From NCBI GenBank assembly GCA_020726285.1, contig DYSW01000011.1, forward strand, positions 4,508-43,904: DNA of 39,397 nt, given 5' to 3'. Shown one piece after another: positions 12,471 through 14,576 of the stretch; within the stretch, counting starts at the first letter, position 1, and every line of letters begins with the position of its first letter. Source of the DNA: Melioribacter roseus. Lineage in GTDB: Bacteria; Bacteroidota; Ignavibacteria; Ignavibacteriales; Melioribacteraceae. The translations under genes and the position numbers were made by a program. A model generated the notes under the pieces. That model made no database searches, was not told the origin of the DNA, and saw only the letters and a list, made by a program, of their open reading frames with translations.

Positions 12471-12513
12471 CTAAACTTTTGATATTAAAAAATGAAATCT
12501 TAAAGGAAAAAAA

Positions 12514-13521
12514 ATGAGTATTCTTTTAGACAAAAAAACGAAAGTTGTTGTTCAAGGAATTACAGGAAGTGAAGGATCATTCCATGCAATGCAGATGCTG
12601 GAATATGGCACAAACGTTGTCGCAGGAGTTACTCCTGGAAAAGGTGGACAAAAATTCGAAAAAGTTGTTCCTATTTTCAATACAGTGGCTGAAGCTGTTC
12701 AAGTAACTAAAGCAGAAGCTTCTGTAATATTTGTTCCACCATCATTTGCCCCCGATGCAATTCTTGAAGCTGCAAATGCAGGAGTTAAAGTTATTGTATG
12801 TATTACAGAAGGAATACCTGCAAAAGATATGGTGAAAGTTTATAATGCTATTAAAGGAAAAGATGTTCGTTTAATTGGACCAAATTGTCCAGGAATCATT
12901 TCACCAGGTAAAGCAAAAATTGGAATTATGCCAGGTTTTATACACAAAAAAGGAAAAATTGGCGTTGTTTCTCGCTCTGGAACATTAACTTATGAAGCTG
13001 TTAAACAATTATCAGATTTAAATATTGGTCAATCAACTTGCGTTGGAATTGGCGGAGATCCTGTAATTGGCTCGCAATTTATTGATATTATCAAATTATT
13101 CAATGAAGATCCTGATACAGAAGGGATTATTATGATTGGTGAAATTGGTGGAACTGCCGAAGAAGAAGCAGCTGAATTTATCAAAATGCATGTTAAAAAA
13201 CCTGTAGTTGGATTTATTGCTGGAAGAACTGCTCCTCCTGGAAGAAGAATGGGTCATGCTGGAGCAATTATTGCTGGAGGAAAAGGAACAGCATCAGAAA
13301 AAATGCAAGCAATGAAAGCCGCAGGCATTCAAGTTGCTGAAAGCCCAGCGGAAATTGGTATTACAATGAAAATGGCTTTGGAAAGTGGAAAAGCTACCAA
13401 AAAAGTTACTAAAATTGATAAAAAATCTGAACCAAAGAAAACTACTAAAACAGTTAAAAAATCTGAAGTAAAGATTTCTAAAGACTCAAAAAAGAAAAAA
13501 CAAGTTAAAAAGAATAAGTAA
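12514..13521 (+). CDS. sucD: succinate--CoA ligase alpha subunit with lysine-rich C-terminal extension
   Basis: The alpha subunit of the TCA-cycle enzyme linking succinyl-CoA to ADP or GDP phosphorylation. The Rossmann CoA-binding region ([13 protein letters not shown]), [20 protein letters not shown] and the phosphohistidine loop GHAGAI (His248) are intact. Family members end near residue 290; here about 43 more residues follow (293-335), of which 20 are lysine, with Thr, Ser and Val between. The tail is in frame with no sign of a frameshift. AAAGGA precedes the ATG. sucC is not adjacent. ndk follows. Confidence 0.97.
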
Positions 13522-13541
13522 TTAATTAATTTTCAAATACA

Positions 13542-13580
13542 GGTATTGTTCTTAACGGAACAACCTTTTTTTAAGAACAA
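13542..13580 (+). promoter_or_regulatory. leader with two mutually exclusive hairpins between sucD and ndk
   Basis: GGTATTGTTC (13542-13551) can pair with GGAACAACC (13557-13565), with a two-base bulge, and is followed by seven T (13566-13572): an imperfect terminator. The overlapping TTGTTCTTAA (13546-13555) is a perfect 10-base inverted repeat of TTAAGAACAA (13571-13580), which ends right before the ndk ribosome-binding site AGGAG. Both use TTGTTC, so only one can form. This may be a sucD terminator, an attenuator or a translation-controlling stem. Confidence 0.55.
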
Positions 13581-13592
13581 AGGAGAAATAAC

Positions 13593-14024
13593 TTGGGAAA
13601 CAAAACATTAGCAATACTAAAACCAGATTGCGTTCAAAAAAATCTAATTGGAAATGTAATTACACATATTACTGAAGCAGGATTTAAAGTTGTAGCAATG
13701 AAAATGACTCATTTAACGAACGAATCTGCGGGTGGTTTTTATGAAATTCACAAACAAAGACCTTTTTATAATGATTTAGTAAAATATATGACTTCAGGTC
13801 CTGTTGTGCCAATTGCTTTAGAAAAAGAGAACGCAGTTGAAGATTTTAGAACTTTGATTGGCGCTACAAATCCACAGAATGCTGCTGAGGGAACAATAAG
13901 AAAATTGTACGCTGATAGCATCGAAGCAAATATAATTCACGGTTCCGATTCAGATGAGAATGCAGCAAATGAAATACTACATTTCTTTTCTCGCAAAGAA
14001 TTATTAGAAAACTACGGTTTATAA
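13593..14024 (+). CDS. ndk: nucleoside diphosphate kinase
   Basis: Ndk balances NTP pools by phosphate transfer through a histidine. The 143 residues show [44 protein letters not shown] and the active-site His116 in NIIHGSDS. The start is TTG at 13593 with AGGAG 7 bases upstream, and the protein begins where the family does. It follows sucD, and Ndk is known to associate with succinyl-CoA synthetase in some bacteria. Its TAA stop is followed directly, in the same frame, by the Nudix gene. Confidence 0.98.
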
Positions 14025-14576
14025 TTGTTAAAAAGATGGAATAAAATCTCTGAAGAGATTATAAATAGGAATAGTCATTGGACATACAAATTAGATAAGT
14101 TTGAAATTGAGCCAAACGGCAAAGGTGAATATCACTATGTCCACACAAAAGGTTCAACTCTGATTATTCCTATTCTTCCATCAAAAAAAATCTTACTTGT
14201 AAATCAGTTCAGATATTTAATTCAAAAGGAAGCACTTGAATTTTCTTGCGGAGTGCTCGAGGAAAATCTAACGATTCATCAAAATGCTCAAAAGGAATTG
14301 CGGGAAGAAACTGGTTATGAAGCAGCTAATCTTGAATTAATTGGAAATTTTATTCCATATTCTGGCGTCAGTAACGAAATATGTTATGTGTTTGTAGCAT
14401 GGAATCTTAAAAATAATCCATTAAAGTCCGACGAAAATGAAGAATTTGAATTGTTTGGATATAGTTCCGAAGAAATTGATAATATGATTGAAAAAAATGT
14501 TTTAATTGATGGAATGACATTGGCAGCTTGGGCACTTTCTAAAAATAAAATTGTTGAAATAATTGCTAATCTATAA
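14025..14576 (+). CDS. Nudix hydrolase, ADP-sugar pyrophosphatase-like
   Basis: The family hydrolyses nucleoside diphosphates linked to another group, such as ADP-ribose. In 183 residues there is a beta-rich N-terminus (YHYVHTKGSTLIIPIL), LLVNQFRY and the Nudix box region GVLEENL...AQKELREETGY. Compared with GX5EX7REUXEEXGU, the first Glu is Leu and the Arg is Lys, while the metal-binding EExG core is kept, so activity is plausible but not assured. The only possible start is TTG 14025, immediately after the ndk stop in the same frame and without a Shine-Dalgarno sequence, suggesting translational coupling or read-through. Confidence 0.82.
   Translation: MLKRWNKISEEIINRNSHWTYKLDKFEIEPNGKGEYHYVHTKGSTLIIPILPSKKILLVNQFRYLIQKEALEFSCGVLEENLTIHQNAQKELREETGYEAANLELIGNFIPYSGVSNEICYVFVAWNLKNNPLKSDENEEFELFGYSSEEIDNMIEKNVLIDGMTLAAWALSKNKIVEIIANL

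Follow-up and report, generated by a model that had tools for sequence, protein, structure and literature searches.

The sucD-ndk locus

The window considered here, i.e. the whole stretch of 39,397 nucleotides analysed, contains three co-directional genes on the (+) strand, as identified from open reading frames and Pfam matches. The first, sucD (12514-13521; Pfam CoA_binding and Ligase_CoA), encodes the alpha subunit of succinyl-CoA ligase. It is followed by ndk (13593-14024; Pfam NDK, E 5.1e-54), which encodes nucleoside diphosphate kinase and starts with TTG, and by a NUDIX-family gene (14025-14576; Pfam NUDIX, E 8.4e-12) that adjoins the 3′ end of ndk. Among named records, those closest to this ndk come from metagenome genomes of Melioribacteraceae and Ignavibacteria. 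The sucD-ndk gap is 71 nt in length, and the features described in it below are all on the (+) strand, including the Shine-Dalgarno sequence of ndk, AGGAG, at 13581-13585.

An ndk match was found in 92 different genomes, and the analysis covered 89 loci, that of the window among them; outside these are G039 as well as G075 and G076, which have partial genes only. A further 80 named loci that match ndk were excluded from the census, and nine were inspected by eye. In 87 of the 89 loci, which belong to the same order, ndk is preceded by sucD on the same strand, directly or at a short distance, and the two genes appear from their arrangement to be a stable pairing. The other two loci, L025 and L132, have no upstream sucD match; in L025 ndk is 183 bases from the contig end.

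Two features of the coding sequences can be mentioned. The end of the window's sucD (13402-13518) encodes a lysine-rich tail and contains a 36-bp direct repeat, the copies of which are 81% identical; lysine-rich tails, of varied length, were seen by eye in several relatives. The window's ndk start, at 13593, is a TTG, and the aligned start is TTG in 65 of 87 loci, ATG in 11 and GTG in 5, with six rows misplaced by the script's start placement and reading AAA there. Judged by this alignment, TTG would be a weak ndk start codon that is kept across the order.

A probable terminator hairpin past the sucD stop codon

A hairpin with a 2-nt bulge, AGGTATTGTTCTTAACGGAACAACCT, is found at 13541-13566, 19 nt past the sucD stop codon. 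It has a predicted folding energy of -7.5 kcal/mol, and 3 of 200 shuffles fold as well (z -2.63). The stem runs directly into a tract of seven T residues (13566-13572), the first of which can also pair with A13541. The end of the stem is 26 nt from the ndk start codon, and the end of the T-tract is 20 nt from it. A simple terminator scan reported no site within 12500-14500, but its rule, at least three G-C pairs and, as read, an unbroken stem, would overlook the bulged stem present here. The signatures of intrinsic termination that were found are a stable hairpin on the transcribed strand, a T-tract directly after the stem and recurrence in relatives beyond chance, and by its anatomy the element looks like an ordinary intrinsic terminator.

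A known RNA family was also considered for the gap. This was rejected, as Rfam 15 gave zero matches above gathering score in the window. The sequence-only reading had suggested that Ndk could be tuned to SucD transcription or to nucleotide levels; there was no sign of a nucleotide sensor in the window. Elsewhere in the window's genome, at L183 10894-11068, there is a cobalamin riboswitch (RF00174, 110.2 bits).

A similar arrangement is also found in this genome at L178 2008-2060, a co-directional gap with a similar stem, AGGTTGTTTC..GAAACAACCT, followed by a T-tract, AGGA and an ATG. Here the stem is 17 nt from the start codon. For two more co-directional pairs of the sample, stem and start are 15 and 21 nt apart, although these starts are less certain.

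Distribution of the terminator in related genomes

The 87 sucD-ndk gaps, the window's included, were searched for a hairpin that folds at -7 kcal/mol or better and has a T-tract after it. Gaps of 51-150 nt have such a terminator in 20 of 33 cases, compared with 1.25 expected from shuffles. Gaps longer than 150 nt, which may include a small intervening gene, have it in 5 of 11 (1.1 expected), and gaps of 50 nt or less in 0 of 43. The same search on the opposite strand finds hairpins with T-tracts in 7 of the 33 gaps of 51-150 nt, which is above the shuffle expectation, and therefore a part of the signal represents hairpins in general. It should be pointed out that the two strands differ in the tail: the first seven bases after the hairpin contain 4-7 T on the sense strand, with a median of 6, and 4-5 T on the opposite strand.

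The tail bears on the question of whether the main role of the hairpin is to stabilise mRNA or to mark a processing boundary, giving the sucD and ndk messages different lifetimes, rather than to terminate transcription. Structures of this type, which set operon stoichiometry by differential decay, have been described in E. coli (PMC5927463). A pure stabiliser would have no need of the T-rich tail on the sense strand, although this argument is weak since a T-rich tail is part of the search rule. Taken together, a role mainly in message decay appears distinctly improbable.

Hairpin sequences vary from genus to genus, and within some groups they are related. The position holds: in the 20 gaps the median distance is 23.5 nt from the sucD stop to the hairpin and 38 nt from the hairpin to ndk, and by stem ends it is nearer to sucD than to ndk in 18 of the 20. 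The window's hairpin is the weakest among the 20. In the closest relative, G001, whose ndk is 95% identical, the same stem is present and unbroken, at -14.0 kcal/mol.

The terminator was also mapped on a quick tree of the SucD and Ndk proteins, which has 86 rows, as one of 87 failed the length filter. The trait requires 13 changes on the tree compared with 21.8 in shuffles, and none of 500 shuffles was as low. Twenty-one of the 25 bearers are in one group of 32 rows that includes the window (SH-aLRT 98), and outside this group there are 4 bearers among 54 rows. L008 is a further bearer in the group (-15.3 kcal/mol), which was scored as having no terminator because the script mis-set its sucD stop. 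Thus the sucD-ndk terminator is conserved in position and variable in sequence, frequent in one group and rare elsewhere.

Covariation, which the sequence-only reading had named as a check, does not go beyond shuffles in the one group counted: among the hairpins of L135, L137 and L150, all from a single genus, two pairs change on both sides, a number reached by 129 of 500 shuffles. In the window's own genus a recognisable ndk is found in three of five genomes, the window's included, which are too few for a covariation test.

In L133, and also in L055, inspection by eye shows a second, longer hairpin in the sucD-ndk gap, placed after the terminator and before ndk, which looks like the insertion of a hairpin element. 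Separately, the possibility that the terminator is itself a repeat element, or resembles an uptake sequence, was tried and rejected. The motif GGTTGTT..AACAACC occurs at three places in the genome, each on both strands, compared with two control hits per strand, and the gap strongly matches only itself, the next match having an E of 0.0116.

An alternative 10-bp pairing

The gap contains a second potential structure. The sequence at 13546-13555, which is within the terminator stem, and that at 13571-13580, which overlaps the end of the T-tract and continues past it, form a perfect inverted repeat found by an inverted-repeat search; it ends one base before AGGAG. Terminator and alternative pairing both use TTGTTC and are mutually exclusive. 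Both structures were described at these positions in the sequence-only reading, and in this respect it was accurate.

The alternative hairpin with its inner helix is 35 nt long and folds at -8.6 kcal/mol, with 0 of 200 shuffles as good (z -3.46); the 10-bp helix by itself contributes -6.5 kcal/mol. Locally the alternative hairpin beats its own shuffles. The 99-nt region overall does not: 47 of 200 shuffles fold as well (z -0.76). When a read-through RNA of 129 nt is folded, the terminator core has a mean pair probability of 0.59 and the alternative one of 0.29. On paper, the folding model would have two hairpins compete in the window's genome.

How surprising the repeat is depends on how it is counted. 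When the 71-nt gap is shuffled 5000 times with its dinucleotides kept, 0.5% of the shuffles contain such a repeat, and when only the sequence 3′ of the T-tract is shuffled, 2.1% pair equally well; both numbers apply to a repeat that was chosen after the fact. The same search of the 39-kb window gives 19 hits at 10 places, about 1 per 4 kb, and five shuffled windows give 10, 12, 11, 4 and 4 hits. Such repeats are somewhat commoner in the window than shuffles predict. Chance is sufficient to explain the 10-bp repeat, without being proven.

The pairing does not recur in relatives. In the alternative arm of G001 another base stands in place of the G that pairs with C13551, and there is a two-base insertion; the probability of the alternative core is 0.0 in both congeners, G001 (five pairs tested) and G003 (six pairs). 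Pairing of the 5′ arm with sequence after the T-tract was no better than in shuffles in the 20 terminator-bearing gaps of 150 nt or less (mean z +0.16). Only the window has p < 0.05 (0.04), L043 being at 0.053, and one of 20 gaps under p 0.05 is what chance predicts. The two pairings that had been singled out thus fare differently, the first being kept in position and the second not conserved. Most likely the alternative pairing is an accidental, one-genome coincidence, and the 3′ arm at 13571-13580 is probably accidental.

Order of synthesis and access to the ndk start site

RNA polymerase makes its termination decision in the T-tract, and the enzyme shields the most recently made bases of the RNA as well. 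With folding of the growing chain begun at 13522, the terminator stem is the optimal structure while the 3′ end is between 13562 and 13578; the alternative pairing first appears when the 3′ end reaches 13580. Since the 3′ arm is made as the T-tract ends and thereafter, the alternative cannot pre-empt termination as an antiterminator; formed after the decision, any action it has would be confined to read-through RNA.

This bears directly on the attenuator that the sequence-only reading had seen in the layout, in which the 10-bp pairing would be an antiterminator permitting ndk transcription under some condition. The mutual exclusion of the two pairings through TTGTTC is what such a device would show. 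However, the competing arm is synthesised too late, and the pairing is neither conserved in G001 and G003 nor enriched in the 20 gaps. The attenuator was rejected on these grounds, and it seems scarcely credible here.

The same reading had offered a translational switch. In such a switch the hairpins would alternate in the read-through RNA and alter how accessible the ndk start site is. In the window taken by itself the two folds are close, and when the 99-nt region is folded its optimal structure joins 13540-13544 to the start-codon region, although this pairing lies outside the alternative helix. AGGAG is unpaired with either hairpin in local folds, the alternative does not pair with it, and in the 129-nt RNA it has a probability of 0.70 of being unpaired. 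The best fold of that RNA has the terminator present and the start codon paired too (0.15 unpaired). The start codon is also mostly paired in the congeners (0.34 unpaired in G001, 0.13 in G003), and as the alternative has no probability there, start-codon pairing does not appear to depend on it. The switch is unsupported and highly improbable. Of the proposed competing hairpins in front of ndk, the terminator is borne out by the relatives, and the switching is not.

Proposed read-through from sucD to ndk

The best explanation, to which we assign a probability of about 0.7, is that the co-directional sucD-ndk-NUDIX run contains a Rho-independent terminator which ends the sucD message, and that read-through feeds ndk. 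A polymerase leaving sucD would make the hairpin at 13541-13566, and a fraction of polymerases would stop in the T-tract. Those reading through would transcribe ndk, which would then receive a part of sucD transcription, together with anything from a possible promoter of its own. The 10-bp pairing would form only in the read-through RNA and would leave AGGAG free. The 20 nt between the T-tract and the start codon provide no room for a promoter, so that transcription of ndk would have to come from read-through or start further upstream. It is possible that Ndk levels are tied to sucD transcription through plain read-through.

Transcription from further upstream raises the question of whether the sucD terminator is complete, with no meaningful read-through, and ndk has a separate promoter upstream of or overlapping the hairpin. 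The motif TAnnTTTG, which we take to be the Bacteroidota-type promoter box, is found before 14 of 50 genes with at least 80 nt of upstream non-coding sequence in sampled stretches, compared with 5 in the reverse complement and 5.4 in shuffles; genes in these stretches are the longest open frames, and some starts are wrong. The window has a box with one mismatch at 13527-13534, where such a promoter might be. Against this, exact matches before, within and after the hairpin in the sucD-ndk gaps number 0, 0 and 1 (0.4, 0.5 and 0.8 expected), and boxes with one mismatch number 8, 6 and 11 (6.8, 6.0 and 12.1 expected), i.e. there is no enrichment. In addition, 43 of the 87 gaps are 50 nt or less, which suggests co-transcription in those loci. 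A literature search for promoters of Ignavibacteria found no study. A separate promoter with full termination is rather unlikely as the explanation of the locus.

Under the preferred reading of a sucD terminator with read-through, a tempting two-hairpin layout resolves into a terminator and a probable coincidence. The case illustrates a simple check: the arm of an antiterminator must precede the T-tract in synthesis. The terminators of the sucD-ndk gaps form a small natural series that suits the study of terminators within co-directional gene runs.

Comparison with known systems

A literature search for attenuation and a terminator at ndk and sucD together, and one for ndk with the sucCD complex, found nothing. 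The closest match in form is the Rho-independent terminator in general, a short hairpin followed directly by a T run, shortly past a stop codon and on the same strand as the preceding gene. The window differs in that its stem is weak and bulged, and in that a co-directional gene starts only 20 nt past the T-tract.

Attenuators, as surveyed in PMC2965389, are alike in having two mutually exclusive hairpins before a gene, one of them with a T-tract. They are unlike in that here the competitor's 3′ arm, instead of preceding the terminator, is at and after the T-tract, the pairing is not conserved, and the hairpin is nearer to the upstream gene. The rule for attenuator candidates given in that paper discards terminators that are nearer to the upstream gene. 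By stem ends the window's hairpin is 26 nt from ndk and 19 nt from sucD, and 20 compared with 19 nt when the T-tract is included, so that the rule would discard it, narrowly, as the 3′ terminator of the upstream gene.

E. coli terminators near a stop codon can be repressed by the ribosome, as reported for tR2 constructs in PMC4824070, where two series differed in efficiency at 17-18 nt, with values of about 0.12 and 0.8. The window's 19 nt are in the range in which efficiency varied with distance and sequence. Because of this similarity, it might be speculated that in this Ignavibacteria clade the sucD-ndk terminator is a fast-evolving valve for the Ndk:SucD ratio, whereby, with the sucD stop so near, a ribosome finishing sucD hinders folding of the hairpin and read-through follows sucD translation, and that the valve is weakening in the window's species. 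This analogy carries an E. coli result over to a locus known here from its sequence, and we consider it quite unlikely.

With respect to gene arrangement, a comparison can be made with the internal terminators that set operon stoichiometry in ABC importer operons of cellulolytic Clostridia (PMC9045158). Those terminators involve other genes and another phylum, and for sucD-ndk it is the sequence that suggests one operon. In both cases there is a stem-loop and T-tract between co-directional genes, and expression of the downstream gene is expected to be lowered.
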